DNA from: Paralcaligenes sp. KSB-10 | GTDB lineage: Bacteria; Pseudomonadota; Gammaproteobacteria; Burkholderiales; Burkholderiaceae_B | NCBI RefSeq assembly: GCF_021266465.1 | Contig: NZ_CP089848.1 | Location: 1,240,001-1,304,000, forward strand | Direction: 5' to 3' | DNA: 64,000 bases | Part shown: one piece after another, positions 48,461-62,950 of the stretch | How the letters are laid out: each line of letters starts with the position of its first letter | How positions within the stretch are numbered: the stretch's first letter is position 1 | Notes under the pieces: model-generated | The model's input: the letters and a program-made list of their open reading frames with translations, nothing else | Told to the model about the DNA's origin: nothing | The model's database searches: none | Program-made: the position numbers and the translations under genes

Positions 48461-49954
48461 ATGCTTCTTCCTTTGCTGCTATTACAAGGCGCGCCGCGAC
48501 GTACCACCGGCGCCGCCTGCCTGGCCATGGCTGTGTTGCTGGCAGGTTGCGCCGTCGGGCCCGACTACGTACGCCCAAGCATGGAGGTTCCGGCCGCCTA
48601 CAAAGAAGCAGGCCCCTGGAAAACGGCGCAACCGCGGCAGATCGACAGCGGGCATAACTGGTGGCAAGCCTATGGCGACCTAACATTGGACCACCTGATC
48701 GAACAAGCCAATCAGACCAATCAGAACATACGCCAGGCCGAAGCCCAGTATCGTCAGGCGCTTGCCGTGGCGGCCGAGGCACGGGCTGGCTTCTGGCCTA
48801 CCCTGGGCATCGGCGGCGGTGCCGGACGTGCGCAAACCAATACCAACGGCCCCAAGCTGGGCAACAACTACACGGTTGGGGTGACCGCCGGGTGGGAGCC
48901 TGATCTCTGGGGAGGCATACGCCGCAGCGCCGAGGCCGGCCAGGCGGCAAGCCAGGCCAGCGCCGCCGACCTGGCCGCAGCCCGCCTGAGCATACAGACC
49001 ACACTGGCGCAAGACTATATGCAGTTGCGCGTCACCGACTTGCAACTGGATCTCTATGCCCGAACCCTGAAGGCCTATCAGCGCGCGCTCACACTCACGC
49101 AGAACCAGTACGCGGCCGGCGTGACCCTGCGTTCGGATGTGGCGCTGGCACAAAGCCAACTGAGTACGGCGCAGGCGCAGGCACTCGACCTGCAGGCCCA
49201 GCGCAGCCAGTTGGAACACGCGCTCGCCATCCTGACCGGCAAGGCGCCGGCGGCCTTTTCGCTGCCGCCCGTGCCGTCAAACTCTGAACAAACCTTGTCC
49301 TTGCCCATGCAATTGCCGGCCATTCCCACCGGGCTGCCCAGCGATCTGCTCGAACGGCGCCCCGATATCGCCAGCGCGGAACGCCGCGCGGCCGCCGCCA
49401 ATGCCAACATCGGCGTGGCTCGTGCTGCCTACTTCCCTTCCCTTATGCTTAGCGCGAGCGGCGGCTTCGACTCCGGCAGTTTCCTGCAATGGTTCAATGT
49501 GCCGGGCCGAGTCTGGGCACTGGGCGCATCGCTGGCGCAAACCGTCTTCGACGGCGGCCTGCGCAAGGCGCGCGATCAACAGGCCACGGCGGCCTATGAC
49601 GCTGCCGTGGCGCAATACAAGCAGACCGTGCTGGGCGGCTTTCAGGAAGTGGAAGACAACCTGGCCACCCTGCGGATTCTGGCGCAGGAAGCCGTGGCGC
49701 AAGACCAAGCCGTACAGTCGGCCAGGCTCGCGGCGAACCTGGCCCTGGCCCAATATCGCGCCGGCACCAGCATTTACCTGAATGTCGTTACGGCGCAGGC
49801 CTTGGCATTAAGCGCCGAACGCACCATGGCGCAACTGCGCGGCCGCCAACTGCTTGCCAGCGTCGCCCTGATCAAGGCCACCGGCGGCGGCTGGAGCGCC
49901 AGCCAATTGCCGGCCGGCCCATCGGAAACAGCCTCCCGCGCCAAATCCAATTAA
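48461..49954 (+). CDS. Outer-membrane efflux lipoprotein (NodT/OprM family)
   Basis: 497 residues with a lipobox LLAGC (acylated Cys about 31) followed by AVGPDYVRP, the standard NodT/OprM mature start. Two OEP repeats form the TolC-like channel; the second is marked by GVARAAYFPSLMLSASGGF. Provides the outer-membrane exit for the RND pump encoded next (gap 18 bases). Expected as a trimer spanning outer membrane and periplasm. Confidence 0.94.
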   Translation: MLLPLLLLQGAPRRTTGAACLAMAVLLAGCAVGPDYVRPSMEVPAAYKEAGPWKTAQPRQIDSGHNWWQAYGDLTLDHLIEQANQTNQNIRQAEAQYRQALAVAAEARAGFWPTLGIGGGAGRAQTNTNGPKLGNNYTVGVTAGWEPDLWGGIRRSAEAGQAASQASAADLAAARLSIQTTLAQDYMQLRVTDLQLDLYARTLKAYQRALTLTQNQYAAGVTLRSDVALAQSQLSTAQAQALDLQAQRSQLEHALAILTGKAPAAFSLPPVPSNSEQTLSLPMQLPAIPTGLPSDLLERRPDIASAERRAAAANANIGVARAAYFPSLMLSASGGFDSGSFLQWFNVPGRVWALGASLAQTVFDGGLRKARDQQATAAYDAAVAQYKQTVLGGFQEVEDNLATLRILAQEAVAQDQAVQSARLAANLALAQYRAGTSIYLNVVTAQALALSAERTMAQLRGRQLLASVALIKATGGGWSASQLPAGPSETASRAKSN

Positions 49955-49972
49955 AAATCCAAGTAGAAATTC

Positions 49973-51151
49973 ATGACTACACTATCTTCCACACGACGCT
50001 CCATGCTGCTGATCGGCATACCCGCGCTGATCGTGCTTGGCGGCCTCGTCTGGTACATAAGCCATCATCACAGCGACAGCTCCACACCACCCGACAGCCA
50101 GGCAGCGCCGGTCGTGGCAACGACGGCGCCGGTCACGCAGCAGGATGTGCCCATCTATCTCACCGGCGTAGGCACCGTGGTTCCCAGAGAAAGCGTCACG
50201 GTCAGGACCCGGATCGACGGCGAACTCGACCAGGTCGGCTTCACGGAAGGCCAGGACGTGGTGAAAGGGCAATTGATCGCGCAACTCGATCCCCGCACGC
50301 AGCAGGCCCAGCTGGATCAGGCCTTGGCGCAAAAAGCCAAGGACCAGGCGCAACTGGTAAACGCCAAGCTCGATTTGCGCCGCTATACCGAACTCATCAA
50401 GCAAGACGCCGCCACCCGCCAGACCCTGGATACCCAGCGTGCCCAGGTGGCCCAGATCGAAGCGGCCGTGCAATCCGACAACGCCCAAATCAGCTTTGCC
50501 AGGACGCAGCTCAGCTATACCCACATCACTGCCCCGATCAGCGGACGCACAGGCGCACGGCTGGTAGACCCGGGCAATATTGTGCATGCCGCGGACGCCA
50601 ACGGCCTGGTGGTAATCAACCAGATAGACCCCATTGCAGTCGTATTCACCTTGCCCGAAGAATCGTTCCAGGATATCAATCATGCGCTCAAGGCCAGCCA
50701 GGAACCGCTAGCCGTGGAAGCTTACCCCCGCAACAGCGCGCAAGTCCTGGGACGCGGCCATCTGATTCTCCTGAACAACCAGATCGACACCAGTACAGGT
50801 ACGGTTCAGATCAAGGGCAGCTTCCCCAATCCCGAACATAAGCTCTGGCCGGGCCAGTATGTGAATGCGCGACTGTACCTGGGCATACGCAAGCAGGCGC
50901 TGACCGTGCCGGCCGAAGTCGTTCAGCGCGGCCCCGACGGCACCTATGCCTATGTCGTCGACTCCGACGAAACCGTACGGATTCAAGCCATACACGTCAT
51001 CAACATCCAGGATGGCATCGCCATCGTCGACCAGGGCTTGAGCGCCGGGCAGCGTGTGGTGCGGGATGGCCAATACAAGCTCAGGCCGGGCCTGCGCATA
51101 AGCGAAGCGCAAGCGCAAACCGCCCCTGCAGCGAAAGGAAACGCCAAGTGA
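49973..51151 (+). CDS. RND efflux periplasmic adaptor (MdtA-like membrane fusion protein)
   Basis: 392 residues: N-terminal membrane anchor (LLIGIPALIVLGGLVWYI), lipoyl-like half motifs VVPRESVTVRTRIDGELDQVGFTEGQDVVKGQLIAQLDP and TAPISGRTGARLVDPGN bracketing a helical hairpin, then beta-barrel and proximal domains. MdtA-like pattern VPIYLTGVGTVVPRESVTVR. Links the RND pump to the outer-membrane channel. Its stop overlaps the pump start by 4 bases (GTGA). Confidence 0.94.
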   Translation: MTTLSSTRRSMLLIGIPALIVLGGLVWYISHHHSDSSTPPDSQAAPVVATTAPVTQQDVPIYLTGVGTVVPRESVTVRTRIDGELDQVGFTEGQDVVKGQLIAQLDPRTQQAQLDQALAQKAKDQAQLVNAKLDLRRYTELIKQDAATRQTLDTQRAQVAQIEAAVQSDNAQISFARTQLSYTHITAPISGRTGARLVDPGNIVHAADANGLVVINQIDPIAVVFTLPEESFQDINHALKASQEPLAVEAYPRNSAQVLGRGHLILLNNQIDTSTGTVQIKGSFPNPEHKLWPGQYVNARLYLGIRKQALTVPAEVVQRGPDGTYAYVVDSDETVRIQAIHVINIQDGIAIVDQGLSAGQRVVRDGQYKLRPGLRISEAQAQTAPAAKGNAK

Positions 51152-54100
51152 GCATTTCCGCCACCTTCATCAAGCGCCCGATCGGCACGTCGCTGCTGGC
51201 GCTGGCGCTGTTCCTGGTTGGCGCGGCGGTGTTTCCGCTGCTGCCGGTGGCACCCCTGCCGCAAGTCGATTTTCCTACGATTCAGGTTACGGCCAAACTG
51301 CCCGGCGGCAACCCCGAAACCATGGCGTCCAGTGTCGCTCAGCCACTTGAGCGGCAGTTCTCCCTGATTGCCGGCCTGACGCAAATGACCTCGGTCAGCG
51401 CGCTGGGGTCCACGCAAATTACCCTGCAATTCGACCTGAATCGCGATATCGACGGCGCCTCGCTCGATGTGCAGGCCGCAATCAACGCCGCCGCGGGGCA
51501 GTTGCCGGCGAATCTGCCGAATCCGCCGACTTTCCGCAAGATCAATCCGGCCGATTCATCCATCATGATCCTGTCGGTGCAGTCGAATGCCTTGCCCATC
51601 ACCGAGGTCAACGATTACGCCGACAATATTCTGGCGCAACAGATTTCACAAATCGAAGGTGTCGGGCTGGTCAATATTTTCGGCCAGCAAAAGCCCGCGG
51701 TTCGCATACAGGTAGATCCGGACAAATTATCCGCCATGGGCCTGAGCCTGGAAGACATACGCGGCGTCATTGCCAGCACCACGGTCAGCCAGCCCAAAGG
51801 AACCATAGACGGAAGCAAACAAAGTTTTACCGTCTACACCAACGACCAGCTGCTGAGCGCCGAACCGTGGAACGACATGGTGCTGGCCTACCGGCACGGC
51901 ACGCCTATTCGGGTACGCGACGTGGGCACGGCCGTGGCGGGTCCCGAAGATGTAAAACAGGCCGCATGGGCATTTGCCGGCAAAGCGGCGACCGCCGAAG
52001 ATGCGGCCATCAATGGCCGTTCCCTGGTGGTCGGCATCACCAAGCAGCCGGGCGCCAATGTCATTGAAACCGTAAAACGCATCCGCGCCGCGCTACCGCG
52101 CCTGAAAGCCTCCATTCCGCCTACGATCCACGTCAGTACGCTCATTGACCGGACCCAGAACATACGTGCATCGGTCCACGAGGTCGAACTGACCCTGCTC
52201 TTGTCCATTGCGCTGGTGGTGGGGGTGATTTTCGTTTTCCTGCGCAGCGTTCCCGCCACCCTGATCCCCAGTGCGACAGTGCCGCTGGCGCTGCTGGGCA
52301 CCGTCGCCATCATGTATCTGGTCGGCTTCAGCCTGGATAACCTGTCCCTGATGGCGCTGACGATTGCCGTGGGTTTCGTGGTCGATGACGCCATCGTCAT
52401 GCTGGAGAACATCTACCGGCATATCGAAGACGGCATGTCGCCCATGGAAGCCGCCTATAAGGGCGCCGGCGAAATCGGCTTTACCATTATCTCGATTTCC
52501 GTATCGCTCGTCGCCGTATTCATACCGCTGCTGCTGATGGGCGGCATCGTCGGGCGCCTGTTCCGGGAATTCGCCATTACTGTCACGCTGACCATCGTGG
52601 TGTCGGTCTTGATCTCGCTGACGCTGACGCCCATGCTGTGCTCGCGTTTCCTGAAAAATTATCACGCTGAGTCGCACGGCCGCATCTACCAGGTGTTCGA
52701 GCGCGGTTTCGACATGCTGCTCAACGGCTACCGGCGCGGACTGAACCTGGTCTTGCGCCATCAGTTCATTACCCTGTGCAGTTTCATCGCCACCCTGGCT
52801 GCCACCGTGGTGCTGTTCATTGTCATTCCGAAGGGATTTTTTCCCCAGCAAGATACCGGCTTCATCTTCGGGTTTGCCGAGTCGGCCCAGGATACGTCCT
52901 TCGACGCCATGAACCAGCGCATGATGAAGCTGGCCGATGTAGTGCGCGAAGATCCGGATATTACGAGTTTCGGGATGAGCAGCAACCAGCCTACCTTCAA
53001 TACCGGCAGGTTCTTCATCAGCCTCAAACCCAAGGAAGACGGGCGCACGGTCAGCGCGGACCAGGTCATTGCACGTCTGCGCCCCCAACTCGCCAAGGTC
53101 GAAGGCATCAAGCTCTTCCTGCAGGCCGGACAAGACATCAATGTGGGCGGCCGCCTGTCGCGCACTCAATACCAGTACACAGTAACGGACGCCAATCTGG
53201 ACGAGCTCAACACCTGGGCGCCCAAACTGCTGGAGCGATTCCGGCAACTACCCGAACTGACCGACCTGGCGACCGATCAGCAAAATGCCGCGGCCACCGC
53301 AACAGTCACCATAGACCGGGCTCGCGCCTCGAGTTTCGGCATTTCGCCGGCGCTGATCGACAACACCATCTACGATGCCATAGGCCAGCGCCAGGTGGCG
53401 CAGTATTTCACGCAAATCAACAGCTATCACGTCGTGCTTGAGGTAACGCCGCGCCTGCAGAAAGATCCCGATCTGTTCAACAAGCTTTACGTCACCTCGC
53501 CGCTGACCGGCCAGCAGATACCGCTTTCGAGCTTCGTGAAAGTGGACACCACCAAAACCGGATATTTATCGATCAGCCACCAAAGCCAGTTCCCGGCCGT
53601 GACGATTTCGTTCAATCTGGCGCCGGGCGTCGCCCTGGGACAAGCCGTTACGGCCATCCAGAAGGCAGAGTCCACCATGAATGTGCCCCAGGCCCTGGTC
53701 GGCTCCTTCCAGGGCACGGCCAAGGCGTTCGGAGAATCGCTGGCAACCCAGCCCTACCTGATCGCGGCCGCCCTGGTAGCGGTCTATATCGTGCTGGGCC
53801 TGCTGTATGAAAGCTACATTCATCCGCTGACGATTCTCTCGACCCTGCCTTCGGCCGGTGTGGGTGCCCTGTTGATCCTGATGGCCAACGGCTACGACCT
53901 GAGCGTCATCGCCCTGATCGGCATCATTTTGCTGATAGGCATCGTCAAGAAAAACGGCATCATGATGATCGACTTCGCCCTGACCGCCGAACGCCAGCAC
54001 GGACTGGAGCCCAAAGAGGCCATCTACCAGGCCTGCCTGCTGCGTTTCCGTCCGATCATGATGACCACCATGTGCGCCCTGCTCAGCGGCCTGCCGCTGA

Positions 54101-54333
54101 TGCTGGGCCACGGCGCGGGCTCGGAACTGCGCCGGCCGCTGGGATTCGCGATGGTCGGAGGCCTTATCCTGTCACAAGCCCTGACGCTGTTCACGACGCC
54201 GGTCATCTATCTGTACCTGGACCGCGCCCACTACTGGTACATGCGCCGCAAAAAGGCTCGCAAGGCAAAAAAAGTCAGGAAAGAACGCCTGGCCCGGCGC
54301 GCCTTGCCGGCCCCTGGAAACACCGCTGAATGA
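51148..54333 (+). CDS. RND multidrug efflux transporter (MdtB/MdtC type)
   Basis: 1061 residues with the HAE1-RND layout: helix 1 SISATFIKRPIGTSLLALALF, two large periplasmic loops, proton-relay Asp pair in AVGFVVDDAIVMLEN (helix 4) and the conserved Lys in GIVKKNGIMMIDFA (helix 10). Closest in style to MdtB/MdtC, but only one such gene is present, while E. coli has the MdtBC pair; it probably forms a homotrimer. Starts with GTG coupled to the adaptor stop. Exports amphipathic compounds, possibly including novobiocin- or bile-salt-like substrates as known for MdtABC. Confidence 0.95.
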   Translation: MSISATFIKRPIGTSLLALALFLVGAAVFPLLPVAPLPQVDFPTIQVTAKLPGGNPETMASSVAQPLERQFSLIAGLTQMTSVSALGSTQITLQFDLNRDIDGASLDVQAAINAAAGQLPANLPNPPTFRKINPADSSIMILSVQSNALPITEVNDYADNILAQQISQIEGVGLVNIFGQQKPAVRIQVDPDKLSAMGLSLEDIRGVIASTTVSQPKGTIDGSKQSFTVYTNDQLLSAEPWNDMVLAYRHGTPIRVRDVGTAVAGPEDVKQAAWAFAGKAATAEDAAINGRSLVVGITKQPGANVIETVKRIRAALPRLKASIPPTIHVSTLIDRTQNIRASVHEVELTLLLSIALVVGVIFVFLRSVPATLIPSATVPLALLGTVAIMYLVGFSLDNLSLMALTIAVGFVVDDAIVMLENIYRHIEDGMSPMEAAYKGAGEIGFTIISISVSLVAVFIPLLLMGGIVGRLFREFAITVTLTIVVSVLISLTLTPMLCSRFLKNYHAESHGRIYQVFERGFDMLLNGYRRGLNLVLRHQFITLCSFIATLAATVVLFIVIPKGFFPQQDTGFIFGFAESAQDTSFDAMNQRMMKLADVVREDPDITSFGMSSNQPTFNTGRFFISLKPKEDGRTVSADQVIARLRPQLAKVEGIKLFLQAGQDINVGGRLSRTQYQYTVTDANLDELNTWAPKLLERFRQLPELTDLATDQQNAAATATVTIDRARASSFGISPALIDNTIYDAIGQRQVAQYFTQINSYHVVLEVTPRLQKDPDLFNKLYVTSPLTGQQIPLSSFVKVDTTKTGYLSISHQSQFPAVTISFNLAPGVALGQAVTAIQKAESTMNVPQALVGSFQGTAKAFGESLATQPYLIAAALVAVYIVLGLLYESYIHPLTILSTLPSAGVGALLILMANGYDLSVIALIGIILLIGIVKKNGIMMIDFALTAERQHGLEPKEAIYQACLLRFRPIMMTTMCALLSGLPLMLGHGAGSELRRPLGFAMVGGLILSQALTLFTTPVIYLYLDRAHYWYMRRKKARKAKKVRKERLARRALPAPGNTAE

Positions 54334-54367
54334 TTTAAACTATTAGGGAGTCGCAACGGTGTTTCCC

Positions 54368-55054
54368 ATGAAAATACTGATCATCGAAGATGAGCTGAAA
54401 ACCGCAGATTACCTGCACAAGGGATTGACGGAGCAAGGCTGCGCGGTAGATCTGGCGCACGACGGCATCGACGGCCAGCATCTGGCCCTGCATCACGATT
54501 ACGATGTCATCGTGCTCGATGTCATGTTGCCCGGCCAGGACGGCTTTTCGCTGCTGCGCGCCCTGCGCGCCGTCAAACAGACGCCGGTCATCATGCTGAC
54601 CGCGCGCGACCGTGTCGAAGACCGTGTCAAAGGCCTGCACGAAGGCGCCGACGACTACCTGGTCAAACCCTTTTCATTCATGGAATTATTGGCTCGGCTG
54701 CAGGCCTTGAACCGGCGCGGGCGCACACAGGAACCCGTGCAGTTGCGCATCGGCGACCTGCATATCGACCTGATCAGCCGCAAAGCCTATCGCGGCAATA
54801 TCCGCATCGACCTGACGGCCAAGGAGTTTTCGCTGTTGGCGGTGCTGGCGCGACGCCAGGGCGAAATCCTCTCCAAAACCGCCATTGCCGAACTGGTCTG
54901 GGACATGAACTTCGACAGCAATACCAATGTGGTGGAAGTCGCCATCAAGCGCTTGCGAGCCAAGATAGATACTCCCTTCAGTCCTCGCCTGCTGCATACC
55001 ATCCGCGGCATGGGCTATGTGCTGGAACTGCGCCGGGAAGAGGCCTCCAGATGA
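54368..55054 (+). CDS. OmpR/CusR-type response regulator
   Basis: 228 residues: REC domain (about 1-118, phospho-Asp51 in [13 protein letters not shown], switch Lys in DDYLVKPFS) and a winged helix DNA-binding domain (about 130-222, [22 protein letters not shown]). Of the CusR/IrlR/CopR branch that usually governs metal or drug efflux. Begins 34 bases after the RND pump stop and overlaps the kinase start by 4 bases, so it most likely regulates this pump operon. Confidence 0.94.
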
Positions 55055-56427
55055 AACGCTCCATCACCGTGCGGCTGGTGGCCATGTTCGCGCTTGCCAC
55101 GCTGGCCACGTTTCTGCTGATCGGCGCCGCCCTCTATGGCGTACTGCAGCGCGAACTGGCCCGGCATCAGCACGACGAACTGCAAACGGCTTACCAGGAC
55201 ATGGAATACATGATCAAGCGTGCCGGAACCCCCAAGCGCTGGTCGCATGTCGTCACCAAAATGGATACCCTGACCCTGGCCAACGGCAGCAAACGCTTCT
55301 GGGCAAACAGCCCGGACCCGCGCTATCGGTACGGCCGGGATCTGTCCGAAATTCAGGCCGTCCCCCACTCGGCCAATGGCATGGGCATGCTCGAACTGCC
55401 CGAACGCGCCTACCCCCTGTACACCCTGACCAAAACCATCGCCGCCTACCAGGACCGGCCGGCCGTCGAACTTACCATAGGCATAGATGCCATGCCTTAT
55501 GTGCACACCCTGCATACCTTCCTGATCGCGCTGATGGCGCTGTCGCTGACCGCCGTGCTGCTGGTCATGGTCCTGGGCTACTGGATTGCCCAGGTGGGTT
55601 TGCGCCCCCTCAAGCTATTGTCGAAAGAAGCGCAAACCCTGAGTCCCAGAACGCTGTCGCAGCGCTTGCGGATCTCGCCGCTTCCCGCGGAACTGTCCGA
55701 TCTCGCCACAGCCTTCAATGGCGCGCTGGGCCGGCTCGAGGCGGCCTACAACCAGCTCGAGGCCTTCAATGCCGATGTGGCTCACGAACTGCGCACGCCG
55801 CTGACCAACCTGATCGGCGAAACCCAGGTTGCCCTGTCGCGCCAGCGTACGGCTCCGCAGTTCCAGGAAGTACTGCAATCGAACCTCGAAGAGGTGGAAC
55901 GCCTGCGCTCCATCGTCAACGACATGCTGTTTCTGGCACGCGCCGATCAGGGCGAAGCCGCCACAGGCCTGGTGCAGACGCCCATTGTGCAGGAAATAGG
56001 CAAAACCATTGAGTTTCTGGAGTTCGTCCTGGACGAGACGCAGGAAACCGTCAAAATCGACGGCGACACCGCTGCCGAGGCAAAAATCGAAACCGCCCTG
56101 TTTCGCCGCGCCATGACCAACCTGTTGCAAAATGCAATTGAACATTCCCGTTCCGGCGCGCAGATCCTGGTCAATCTTCACCAGGAATCCTCGCTCATCC
56201 GGATTGCGGTCTCCAATCCGGGCGAACCCATCGCTCACAATCACCTGCCCTTGCTGTTCGACCGGTTTTACCGGGTCGACGCCGCGCGCCATAACGGCCA
56301 AACGCATGGCCATGGCCTAGGCCTGGCCATTGTCAAGGCGATTGCCACCATGCATGGGGGCGAAGTCTTCGCCAGCAGCGCAAACGGCATGAACACAATC
56401 GGCTTCAGTGTGCCGGCGGCGGGCTGA
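55051..56427 (+). CDS. Sensor histidine kinase of the CusS/IrlS type
   Basis: 458 residues: two membrane helices (about 8-30 and 152-178) around a periplasmic sensor of about 120 residues, HAMP (about 178-230), dimerisation domain with His245 in [10 protein letters not shown], then ATPase boxes [18 protein letters not shown] and [13 protein letters not shown]. The G1 box DXGxG is replaced by SNPGEP, a common form in this branch. Translationally coupled to the regulator (ATGA overlap). The periplasmic domain shows no clear Cys/His metal cluster, so the signal may be a drug or envelope stress rather than copper. Confidence 0.93.
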
Positions 56428-58208: not shown

Positions 58209-58421
58209 CTACGCCAGATTGTCGCGGACCCATTGTTCACACTCCAGCGCCAGACTCATTATGCGCTGGATGATTTGCACCTCGGTCTTCCCCGCCGCGC
58301 GTTGGGCGCTACTGAAAATTTCCAGACTCTCGTCGGTAGGGAACCAGTCATTTTCCGGCTGGATCTCCAGGCCATCGACGTGCTTGATATTGCCGTTAGG
58401 CAAGATATACCAGGTATCCAT
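58209..58421 (-). CDS. Small conserved-looking protein, function unknown
   Basis: 70 residues beginning MDTWYILPNGNIKHVDGLEIQ and rich in acidic residues and Trp (ENDWFPTDESLEIF). The stable composition and a start with AGGATACC upstream suggest a true gene; I recall similar short proteins in Bordetella-like genomes but recognise no domain. Convergent with azoR (34-base gap). Confidence 0.6.
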   Translation of the reverse strand: MDTWYILPNGNIKHVDGLEIQPENDWFPTDESLEIFSSAQRAAGKTEVQIIQRIMSLALECEQWVRDNLA

Positions 58422-58675
58422 CACGGGTATCCTATTTGTCCCAATTTCAGGCAGCCGTACCTGCGCCGCGGCCGGACACCTAGACACCTATTCTATTGGC
58501 GGTAGTCAGGCGTCCTGTCGCCATGCGCGGGCATATCGTCGCGAAGGAGGCTGAAATATACGCCGCCACCGTAACACTCTTTACATTCTTTATGGGGTTT
58601 TATGGCGCGCACGCAACAATTCTTTGCACAACATGCCGCGACAACGATATTAAAATGGCGGATCAAAGAATTTGA

Positions 58676-58736: not shown

Positions 58737-61700
58737 ATGTCTGACTCCTATGTTTTGCATGGCTCGCAACAGCCGGAATTGCTGCACCGTAAAACATTGG
58801 CCGACGTGTTTGAGGCAAGCGCCACACACCACCCCCAGAACACCGCGTTGATTTTCGGCACACGCAGCCTGAGTTACGCCGAACTCAATGTCGAGGCCGA
58901 TCGCGCCACCCATCGCCTGATCGAAGCCGGGGTAAAGCCCGGACATATCGTTGGATTATGGTTGCCGCGCGGCATCGATTTGCTGATCATGCAACTGGCG
59001 ATCGCCAAAACCGGCGCAGCCTGGCTTCCTTTCGACGCGGATACGCCCGTTGAGCGCATAGCCGTATGCCTGGAGGATGCAAAAGCAAGCGCCCTGCTCA
59101 GTTGCGCGGACCTGCTGCCGCAACTGGGTTCCCTGGCTGCGCCGGTGCACACGGCGGAACAGTTGCTGGCACCGCTGGACAACGATCCCCCCCCCTTGCG
59201 CCACCGCGCCGGCACCCAGGGCGAAGACACCGCCTATGTCATCTACACCTCCGGATCCACAGGCAAGCCCAAGGGCATTGCCATCACGCAAGCCAGTATC
59301 TGCCATTTTTTGCAAAGCGAAAATGCCATACTGGGAGTGCGCGAAAGCGACCGGGTATACCAGGGATTCTCGGTGGCATTCGACATGTCGTTCGAGGAAA
59401 TATGGATCAGCTACCTGGTGGGTGCCACCCTCTGGATAGCTCCCAAGGAAATCGCGGCCGATCCCGAGGCCCTGCCGCGCGCATTGACGGCGGAAAACAT
59501 CACGGTTCTGCACGCCGTGCCGACCTTGCTGGCCCTGTTCTCCCAGGATGTGCCCAGCTTGCGGATTATCAACCTGGGCGGGGAAATGTGCCCCGAAACG
59601 CTGGTCGAGCGCTGGGCAAAGCCCGGACGGCAGATGTTCAACACCTACGGCCCCACCGAAGCGACTGTCTCGGCCAGCCTGGCCCAGTTGAAACCGGGCG
59701 AGGCCGTGACAATTGGCCATCCTTTGCCCAACTATGGCTTGCTGGTGGTCGCAACCGGGACGGAAGGCGCCGAAAGCCAAACGCTGCGCATATTGCCTCA
59801 CGGCGAGATCGGTGAGCTGTGTATTACCGGCCCCGGCGTGGCGGCGGGCTATCTGGGGCGGCCCGACCTGACCCGGGAAAAATTCCTGCCCAATCCCTGG
59901 AGCATTGGCGAGCACGACCAACGGCTTTACCGCACCGGCGACCTGGCCCGCATCGACGCCGATCATCGCGTGCATTGCCTGGGCCGCGCCGACGATCAAG
60001 TCAAGATCCGCGGTTTTCGGGTAGAGCTGGGTGAAATCGAAGCGGTGCTGGCTCAGCAGCCGGGCATAGGTGCCACAGCGGTGGTGCTGCGCCAGGATGC
60101 CGGCATGGACCAGTTGATTGCGTTCTGGGTGGGCGCCAATGGCGAAGCCACCGCCATGCCAGACAACGGGAACGGAACCGCCGCCGGGGATGCCGATACC
60201 TCCACGGCAACGCTGCGCGCGGCCCTGGGAGCACGCTTGCCTCCCTATATGGTGCCGGTGCGCTTTGAACATCTGGCGGAAATGCCGCGCCTGCCTTCCG
60301 GCAAGATCGATCGCAAAACGCTCAAAGCCCTGCCGCTGGCTGCCAGCGGCCCGGCCGAAGGCTCGGACGCAGCGGAAACCCCGGCGGAAGAAGCCTTGTT
60401 TGCCGCGCTGGAAACGCTCTTTCCGGGCCAGGCCGTACGCCGGGAGCTGGATTTTTTCAGCGACCTGGGAGGTCACTCGCTGTTTGCCGCACGACTCGCC
60501 TCCGCATTGCGAGCCGATCAGCGCTTTGCACAAGTGACCGTGCGCGATATCTACCAAAACCGCCAGATCGGCCGACTGGCCCAAGTGCTGTCCACCGTCA
60601 TGGATCGCCAGGCCAGCGACACAGCGCTTCACGGCGCAGAACGGACTGTCCCCCCGCCCCGGATCATGCATTCGCGATGGCGACGCTGGCGTTGCGGGGT
60701 CGCGCAGGCTGTCACCGTGCCGTTCCTGGTGACGTTCAAAATGGCGCAATGGCTGCTGCCCTTCTTTGCCTATCAATATCTTACGGGCGACCCGGGCGAT
60801 TCCATCACCCGGGCCGTTGCCGTGTCGGTCGTGGTGTTTTTGCTGGCTACCCTGCTGGAGTTCGTCCTGGCCTGCGCCGGCAAATGGCTGATTCTGGGGC
60901 GATTGAAACCCGGGCGCTATCCGCTTTGGGGCGTGACTTACTTCCGCTGGTGGCTTACCGATCGCATACTCGAAGCAACACCCCTGTACATGCTCAACGG
61001 CTCTTCCTTATATGTCTACTGGCTTCGCGCGCTCGGGGCCCGGATCGGCAACGACGTGCTGATTGGCTCGATTACATTGCGTGTGCCGGATCTGCTCAGC
61101 GTCGGCGACGGCGTCAGCATAGGCAACGGCGTCAACCTGGAAAACGCCCGCGTACAGAACGGCGAATTGATACTGGGCCAAATCACGCTGGAAGACCAGG
61201 TCTCGCTGGGCGCCTATGTGGTAATGGAAGGCAACACCCATATCGGCGAGTGGGGGCACGTGGACGGGCAGTCGGCATTGCGCGATGGCTCGCGGGTGCC
61301 GGCCCGCCGCATCTGGGGCGGTTCGCCCGCCATCGACCACGGGGAATTCGATCCCGCCAGCCTGCCTTTGCGGCCCGTCGAATCGCGAGCCCACATCATC
61401 GGCAAGAACATCTACTTCGTGCTGGGCGCCCTGTTCATCAGCGTGCTGTTTTTCATGCCCCTGTTCCCGACCTTCATTCTGGTTGACTACCTGGACATCG
61501 ACAACCTGTCCGTGGGCGCGCTGCAGCGCGCCGGCTTCGTCAACGGCTACGATGTCTTCGCCTTGCGCCTGATCAAATACTTCCTGCTGGCGCTGCCCGC
61601 CAGCGTCGTGATGATTGTCCTGACCGCCCTGCTGGCCGCGGGCATACGCTGGGCGCTGCTGCCCAAACTCAAGCCAGGCCGCTACCCTGTGAATGGCAGG

Positions 61701-62855
61701 GTCTTCCTCCTCAAGTGGCTGGTCAACCAGATTCAGGAGTCCAGCCTGCAGGTGCTGCATGGCGTCTACGCCACGGTGTTTTCCTCCACCTGGTATAGGT
61801 TGCTGGGCGCGCGGGTCGGCCGCGATGCGGAGATCTCTACCGCGCTGGGGGTAGTGCCCGACATGCTGACTCTGGGCGACGAGACCTTTATCGCCGACGC
61901 GGTCATGCTGGGCGACGAACATATCGACGGCGGCTGGATGACCGTAAAGCCGACCGTTATCGCGCGCCGCAGCTTTGTCGGCAATGGCACCTATATACCC
62001 GACGGCACCAACCTGCCGGAAAATGTGCTGATCGGAGTGCTTTCCAGCCTGCCGCGCTCGACGCAGGTCAAAAGCGGTGATACCTGGCTGGGCTCGCCTC
62101 CCATCAATCTACCCGCCCGCGAGACGGTGCAGGGCTTTCCCGAAGAGCTGACATACCACCCCTCGCCCTCGCGACGCCTGCAGCGCGGCCTGGTTGAGAC
62201 CTTCCGTATCGTGGCACCCCATTCCCTGGTGATCGCCGCCGGCTATGCGATCGTGCTGGATGTCATGCCCATTGCGGGGGCCGGCCACTGGCTCTACACG
62301 ATCCGCGAACTGGCCATTTCCGGACTGCTGTTCGGCCTTGCGACCTTTCTGTTCGTGGCCTTTTTCAAATGGGTGCTGCTGGGCCGCTACCGGCGCTGCG
62401 CGGTACCCATGTGGACTCCATTCGTGTGGCTGTCCGAGGCCACCACCAATATGTATGAAGGCATTGCCGTTCCGAATTTCCTGCGCTACCTGCGGGGCAC
62501 GCCTTTCCTGCCCAAGGCACTCAACCTGCTGGGTTGCCACATCGGACGTGGCGTTTACCTGGACACCACCGACATCACCGAATTCGATTGCGTGCACATA
62601 GGCGACTACAGCGAGCTCAACGCCTTGTGCTGCCCACAGACCCATCTGTTTGAGGACAGGGTCATGAAAATCGACGATGTGCGCATCGGTGCGCGCACCT
62701 ACATGGGGCCGCGCAGTACCATCCTGTACAGCGCCAATATCGCAAACGATGTACGCCTGGGTCCGTTGACCCTGGTCATGAAGGGCGAGAACATACCCGC
62801 CAATACCGCCTGGCACGGCTGCCCCGCCATGCCTCAGCCTGACAATCCGCGGTAG
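58737..62855 (+). CDS. Pls/PosA-type membrane NRPS-like synthetase (amino-acid ligase related to epsilon-poly-lysine synthetase)
   Basis: 1372 residues. Adenylation domain (about 15-545) with TSGSTGKPKG, FDMSFEEIW, NTYGPTEATVS, YRTGDLARI and PSGKIDRKTL; carrier domain (about 552-625) with the phosphopantetheine Ser581 in LGGHSLF. No condensation or thioesterase domain follows. The rest alternates three pairs of membrane helices (about 655-705, 885-960, 1155-1210) with three left-handed beta-helix-like domains; LKPGRYP recurs at the start of the first two, a degenerate form before the third. This order A-T-TM-C1-TM-C2-TM-C3 is that of epsilon-poly-L-lysine synthetase. Expected in the inner membrane, joining one amino acid, probably to itself or to a partner. 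The substrate is unknown. Confidence 0.88.
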   Translation: MSDSYVLHGSQQPELLHRKTLADVFEASATHHPQNTALIFGTRSLSYAELNVEADRATHRLIEAGVKPGHIVGLWLPRGIDLLIMQLAIAKTGAAWLPFDADTPVERIAVCLEDAKASALLSCADLLPQLGSLAAPVHTAEQLLAPLDNDPPPLRHRAGTQGEDTAYVIYTSGSTGKPKGIAITQASICHFLQSENAILGVRESDRVYQGFSVAFDMSFEEIWISYLVGATLWIAPKEIAADPEALPRALTAENITVLHAVPTLLALFSQDVPSLRIINLGGEMCPETLVERWAKPGRQMFNTYGPTEATVSASLAQLKPGEAVTIGHPLPNYGLLVVATGTEGAESQTLRILPHGEIGELCITGPGVAAGYLGRPDLTREKFLPNPWSIGEHDQRLYRTGDLARIDADHRVHCLGRADDQVKIRGFRVELGEIEAVLAQQPGIGATAVVLRQDAGMDQLIAFWVGANGEATAMPDNGNGTAAGDADTSTATLRAALGARLPPYMVPVRFEHLAEMPRLPSGKIDRKTLKALPLAASGPAEGSDAAETPAEEALFAALETLFPGQAVRRELDFFSDLGGHSLFAARLASALRADQRFAQVTVRDIYQNRQIGRLAQVLSTVMDRQASDTALHGAERTVPPPRIMHSRWRRWRCGVAQAVTVPFLVTFKMAQWLLPFFAYQYLTGDPGDSITRAVAVSVVVFLLATLLEFVLACAGKWLILGRLKPGRYPLWGVTYFRWWLTDRILEATPLYMLNGSSLYVYWLRALGARIGNDVLIGSITLRVPDLLSVGDGVSIGNGVNLENARVQNGELILGQITLEDQVSLGAYVVMEGNTHIGEWGHVDGQSALRDGSRVPARRIWGGSPAIDHGEFDPASLPLRPVESRAHIIGKNIYFVLGALFISVLFFMPLFPTFILVDYLDIDNLSVGALQRAGFVNGYDVFALRLIKYFLLALPASVVMIVLTALLAAGIRWALLPKLKPGRYPVNGRVFLLKWLVNQIQESSLQVLHGVYATVFSSTWYRLLGARVGRDAEISTALGVVPDMLTLGDETFIADAVMLGDEHIDGGWMTVKPTVIARRSFVGNGTYIPDGTNLPENVLIGVLSSLPRSTQVKSGDTWLGSPPINLPARETVQGFPEELTYHPSPSRRLQRGLVETFRIVAPHSLVIAAGYAIVLDVMPIAGAGHWLYTIRELAISGLLFGLATFLFVAFFKWVLLGRYRRCAVPMWTPFVWLSEATTNMYEGIAVPNFLRYLRGTPFLPKALNLLGCHIGRGVYLDTTDITEFDCVHIGDYSELNALCCPQTHLFEDRVMKIDDVRIGARTYMGPRSTILYSANIANDVRLGPLTLVMKGENIPANTAWHGCPAMPQPDNPR

Positions 62856-62922
62856 GGGCGGGCCCTGTACCCGCCCGTTTGGCCACGCATTGATCGCGGA
62901 GGGCCACAAGGGCGACCCCTAC
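62852..62922. repeat. REP-pair-like (REPIN-type) element
   Basis: Opens with GTAGGGGCGGGCC and closes with GGCGACCCCTAC, so two GTAGGGG-headed units face each other across about 30 bases; the left unit itself folds (GGGCGGG with CCCGCCC shifted by one). GTAG is the usual head of REP sequences moved by RAYT transposases. The GTAG overlaps the TAG stop codon of the synthetase gene. Confidence 0.6.
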
Positions 62923-62950
62923 GGTCGCCTGCTACACTTGACGCTCTTCC

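Follow-up and report, generated by a model that had tools for sequence, protein, structure and literature searches.

The window analysed here, 64,000 nucleotides of the Paralcaligenes sp. KSB-10 genome, contains a gene (hereafter, the posA-like gene; Table 1) that very probably encodes a PosA-type synthetase, the predicted product being delta-poly-L-ornithine. Enzymes of the PosA kind have already been characterized, and, judged by its sequence, this gene is a complete further copy of that type. It is a single unbroken ORF of 1372 codons in the ORF list of the window and, in a search of the 4.45 Mb one-contig genome, the sole full-length Pls/PosA gene.

The domain plan A-T-TM-C1-TM-C2-TM-C3 that was described in the first-pass annotation is intact: the AMP-binding domain, the carrier domain with its LGGHS motif, the TIGR02353 region, the three repeat blocks and the membrane pairs were all found. 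Pfam detects an AMP-binding domain (PF00501; residues 25-373, 250.7 bits) and a hexapeptide repeat (residues 817-839), and the whole NCBIfam profile TIGR02353 (Pls/PosA family non-ribosomal peptide synthetase terminal domain; profile positions 1-695) is matched by residues 655-1364 with a score of 789.6 bits, where the cut-off is 423.1 bits; for this assignment by TIGR02353 and Pfam, chance is excluded. The TIGR02353 score bears out the earlier placement of the protein in the epsilon-poly-lysine synthetase (Pls-like) family, with a cationic homopolymer as the predicted product. As is typical of the Pls/PosA family, a single A domain is followed by a carrier domain with the phosphopantetheine serine (Ser581, which is retained in at least 97% of 30 diverse family members), and each of three homologous soluble units is preceded by a membrane helix pair. 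In the hydropathy profile, hydrophobic stretches flank three soluble blocks, and the helices in the AlphaFold2 (AF2) model are compatible with three membrane pairs.

Table 1 The posA-like gene, its predicted domains and key residues, and the adjacent small ORF
Feature	Position in the window	Strand	Details
posA-like gene, Pls/PosA family synthetase	58737-62855	+	1372 aa
Adenylation domain (residues 25-530)	58809..60326	+	core 61.8% identical to PosA 8G95
Nine pocket residues D216 M217 E220 H259 N279 G281 T303 V311 S312, span of codons	59382..59672	+	same as PosA residues of PMC10522769
Tenth pocket residue, K523 (A10 lysine of the PSGKIDR motif)	60303..60305	+	alignment
Carrier (T) domain, about residues 545-625	60369..60611	+	phosphopantetheine Ser581 at 60477-60479, LGGHS
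Membrane helix pair 1, about residues 647-720	60675..60896	+	hydropathy, AF2
C1 beta-helix unit, about residues 749-880	60981..61376	+	Pfam, AF2, repeat alignment
Membrane helix pair 2, about residues 886-976	61392..61664	+	hydropathy, AF2
C2 beta-helix unit, about residues 1007-1128	61755..62120	+	D1054 and N1083 invariant; AF2, repeat alignment
Membrane helix pair 3, about residues 1144-1215	62166..62381	+	hydropathy, AF2
C3 beta-helix unit, residues 1250-1366	62484..62834	+	Q1301-x-H1303-x-x-E1306 motif; H1303 at 62643-62645; AF2, repeat alignment
92-aa ORF, no Pfam match	58209-58487	-	found next to the orthologue in sister genomes L137 and L138, at 66-75% identity

Within the family, the nearest characterized enzyme is the delta-poly-L-ornithine synthetase PosA rather than the epsilon-poly-lysine synthetase to which the protein had been likened. 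Its best match in the PDB is the A domain of Acinetobacter baumannii PosA (8G95; 2.3e-156), whereas the match to the poly-lysine synthetase A domain (7WEW; 3.4e-81) is far weaker; in the core of the A domain, 249 of the 403 positions are identical to those of 8G95. Alignment to 8G95 yields the pocket code DMEHNGTVSK, with all ten residues the same as in the PosA code reported by Patel and Gulick in 2023 (PMC10522769), where the tenth, K523, is read from the PSGK motif because the 8G95 crystal sequence stops short of this position. The pocket given in the first-pass annotation, DMEHILTVSK, holds at eight positions; at positions 5 and 6, its I and L are residues adjoining the true pocket residues N279 and G281 in the stretch R-I-I-N-L-G-G-E. 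Because the corrected code is identical to that of PosA, L-ornithine, where previously no substrate had been assigned, is strongly predicted as the substrate of the A domain.

The biochemistry of PosA is consistent with this prediction. The A domain of PosA has an about 160-fold preference for L-Orn over L-Lys, activity is lost in D217 or E221 mutants, T304 and S313 hold the delta-amine, and longer side chains are kept out by M218 (PMC10522769); the counterparts of all five residues are retained in the window protein. PosA also activates D-Orn, with about half the efficiency (PMC10522769), which counts against a firm stereochemistry for the substrate predicted here.

The designation C for the three soluble units of PosA and Pls is historical. 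That these units are repeats, as described previously, is confirmed by their mutual homology (hhalign probability 99.5-99.9%), but the condensation label fails: Pfam detects no condensation domain in the protein, and the predicted fold is a left-handed beta-helix, so that the reading of C1-C3 as condensation domains was rejected. The AF2 model of residues 640-1372, built from an alignment of 26 sequences (pTM 0.85, mean pLDDT 78), combines long membrane-type helices with three beta-rich units, and the matches to it in Foldseek and VIA-align searches are hexapeptide acetyltransferases (for C3 against maltose acetyltransferase, Z 13.0, rmsd about 3.5 over about 148 residues). Thus, C1-C3 are predicted to be three tandem left-handed beta-helix, hexapeptide acyltransferase-like units. 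A PosA model with three left-handed beta-helices had been presented earlier by Patel and Gulick (PMC10522769), so this result is a confirmation and not a discovery.

The three units differ at one conspicuous position. In a set of 30 diverse family members, H1303 of C3 occurs in 29, the other one having a gap, and Q1301 in all 30; profile alignments of the repeats place R805 of C1 and E1061 of C2 opposite H1303, and across the same 30 proteins these two positions are variable and occupied by other residues. Given that the near-invariant histidine is confined to C3, we propose C3 as the catalytic unit. Conservation and fold together suggest that H1303 would act as the base when the isopeptide bond is made, with C1 and C2 having a structural part or holding the chain; more tentatively, the assembly might be a pseudo-trimer with one working active site, in C3. 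The model is of moderate confidence around H1303 (block mean 68). Since residue-level sequence alignments of C3 with solved acyltransferases are unreliable in their reach across H1303, its equivalence to the catalytic histidine of the acyltransferase family is putative.

Under the proposed mechanism, the A domain would adenylate L-ornithine, with D216 contacting the alpha-amine, E220, T303 and S312 the delta-amine, and M217 setting the chain-length limit. The ornithinyl group would then pass to the phosphopantetheine of Ser581, the carrier having been modified, probably, by a stand-alone transferase of the Sfp type whose gene lies in another part of the genome. With H1303 as the presumed base for the isopeptide bond, repeated cycles would produce a short cationic isopeptide polymer joined through the ornithine side chains. 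The in vitro product of PosA is free and consists of 7-12 units (PMC10522769); at 52.5% full-length identity, the length or linkage of the product could differ in the window enzyme. No betaproteobacterial product is reported in the openly licensed papers that were searched.

Other readings of the gene are far less probable. Activation of L-lysine and synthesis of epsilon-poly-lysine, as in epsilon-poly-L-lysine synthetase, is quite unlikely, even though the overall architecture is shared, the Pls A domain 7WEW is clearly homologous, and the M218A substitution in PosA brings an about tenfold gain in efficiency for Lys (PMC10522769), which indicates that lysine is not far off. The lysine enzymes have Ala at pocket position 2, the chain-length residue (PMC10522769), but the window protein has M217 there, the Met of PosA; its pocket is in full that of an enzyme from which no lysine polymer came, and it falls in the tree clade with PosA. 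From the pocket, then, this identity was judged the less likely one. A low probability also attaches to a variant in which ornithine is activated but a short isopeptide conjugate or capped oligomer is made, such as one attached to a lipid or a polyamine. The C-terminal half is membrane-bound and acyltransferase-like, and the acceptor is not fixed by the sequence; however, A. baumannii PosA, of the same clade and plan, releases free 7-12-mers in vitro (PMC10522769), and lipid or polyamine genes are not conserved near posA in the loci of the relatives. The chance that the gene is a degenerate or silent copy, and hence inactive, is minute: an obvious promoter match is absent and no transferase gene adjoins it, but the ORF is intact, the pocket, the carrier serine and H1303 are retained, and the orthologues in sister genera are 80-85% identical.

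PosA-like proteins are widespread among the relatives. At least 561 encoding stretches were found in a species-level genome collection, and the best 80 are mostly from Burkholderiales; by these sequences, a PosA-type enzyme in a betaproteobacterium is nothing unusual, the gene being common in this order. Among the best 80 of the at least 561 together with the window protein, 79 of the 81 have the code DMEHNGTVSK and 2 have DMEHNGSVSK. In a wider family set, the pocket varies by clade: DLEDIGTVVK or DLEDLGTVVK in alphaproteobacteria such as Rhizobium, DLEDIGSVVK in Azospirillum and others, DFEYVGTVTK in actinobacteria, as well as DFEALGTVTK and DSECYGGVTK. The DFEALGTVTK members (L095, L101, L103 and others) belong to one other genus group in the phylum. 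DSECYGGVTK is the code published for a Bdellovibrionales homologue (PMC10522769), and its recovery provides a check on the mapping of the pocket columns.

The full-length A. baumannii PosA locus is 52.5% identical to the window protein over 99% of the length, and in a quick tree of 52 proteins both belong to a 37-row clade with SH-aLRT support of 100%. A full-length gene is present in 25 of the 299 genomes of a phylum sample and in 10 of the 151 genomes of the same family (Burkholderiaceae_B). Those ten comprise the window gene, four orthologues that are 80-85% identical to it (two from Candidimonas) and five genes at 53-57% identity, with DMEHNGTVSK in all ten. The five (L130-L134) make up a second, more distant PosA lineage with the same pocket, which hints at an old duplication or transfer.

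Many of the relatives carry a candidate partner gene. With a profile derived from the genes next to posA, a transferase homologue was found downstream, on the same strand, at 58 of the 80 loci (L011-L090) that are the best of the at least 561 relatives; in most cases, its start lies no more than a few tens of bases from the stop codon of posA, and in a few, about 1.5 kb away. Five proteins, four of these neighbours and the distant Sfp-type enzyme of the KSB-10 genome itself, were scanned with Pfam, and all four neighbours, at 35.6-45.6 bits, score above the Pfam gathering cut-off of 25 for 4'-phosphopantetheinyl transferase. The adjacent gene is absent in the window, in Candidimonas and in the other members of its own family that were examined. 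The KSB-10 genome encodes, at other sites, a protein the size of AcpS and, about 207 kb away at C1:1510341, one of the Sfp type, which could load the carrier. The gene order suggests an ancestral posA-transferase operon. More tentatively, and with considerable doubt, posA and the divergent transferase of Burkholderiales might constitute a dedicated, widely conserved operon, with a polymer whose physiological function (in the envelope, in anion storage or against fungi) has nothing to do with classical antibiotic production, and with a general transferase substituting for the missing partner in the window lineage.

The surroundings of the posA-like gene agree with the earlier statement that no condensation or hydrolase gene lies beside it; a thioesterase gene is absent as well. 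Upstream are a small minus-strand ORF at a distance of 249 nt, which is probably a real gene (Table 1), an azoreductase and a LysR regulator, and 95 nt downstream is a DEAD-box helicase. A palindromic GTAGGGGCGGGC...GCCCGCCC element is located between the posA-like gene and the helicase gene (62852-62930); the pattern has 15 copies in the genome with at most 2 mismatches, compared with 0 for a reversed control pattern, and appears to be a dispersed intergenic repeat. A promoter scan at the posA-like gene yielded nothing beyond chance, Rfam had no matches in the window, and no export, immunity or degradation genes are linked to the gene. Farther upstream (48461-56427), an outer membrane factor, a membrane fusion protein, an RND pump, a response regulator and a sensor kinase are encoded in a row, and this cluster is partly kept upstream of posA in Candidimonas. 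It was considered as an exporter or sensor and rejected: among the 80 loci, a pump is nearby only in Candidimonas and one Undibacterium, so its proximity to posA probably reflects shared synteny and chance.

The substrate prediction is now clear for a gene for which it had been left open, and the PosA pocket is almost invariant over a large betaproteobacterial set. If the prediction is correct, Burkholderiales of soil and water would commonly make delta-poly-L-ornithine, a product that has been overlooked. The near-invariant C3 histidine, along with the downstream transferase gene in many relatives, makes the mechanism of polymerization accessible to direct testing.

Among known systems, the closest is A. 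baumannii PosA (PDB 8G95-8G98; PMC10522769), which shares with the window protein the A-T-(TM pair-beta-helix)x3 plan, the ten pocket residues, TIGR02353, the free-standing single gene and the clade, but differs in its full-length sequence (52.5% identity), its bacterial class and its gene neighbours, and the window product is predicted only. Pls of Streptomyces albulus (7WEW) has the same overall architecture with a membrane-bound tandem terminal domain; unlike the window protein, it has Ala for Met at pocket position 2 (PMC10522769), a more distant A domain and lysine as the substrate. The alphaproteobacterial homologues from Rhizobium and Azospirillum share the full-length architecture at 39-42% identity, whereas their pockets are of the DLEDIGTVVK type and they form a separate clade. 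The maltose and galactoside O-acetyltransferases, hexapeptide-repeat enzymes, have in common with each C unit the left-handed beta-helix and a trimer-like packing, but these enzymes are soluble and CoA-dependent, with sugar acceptors, and the likeness is one of fold alone.
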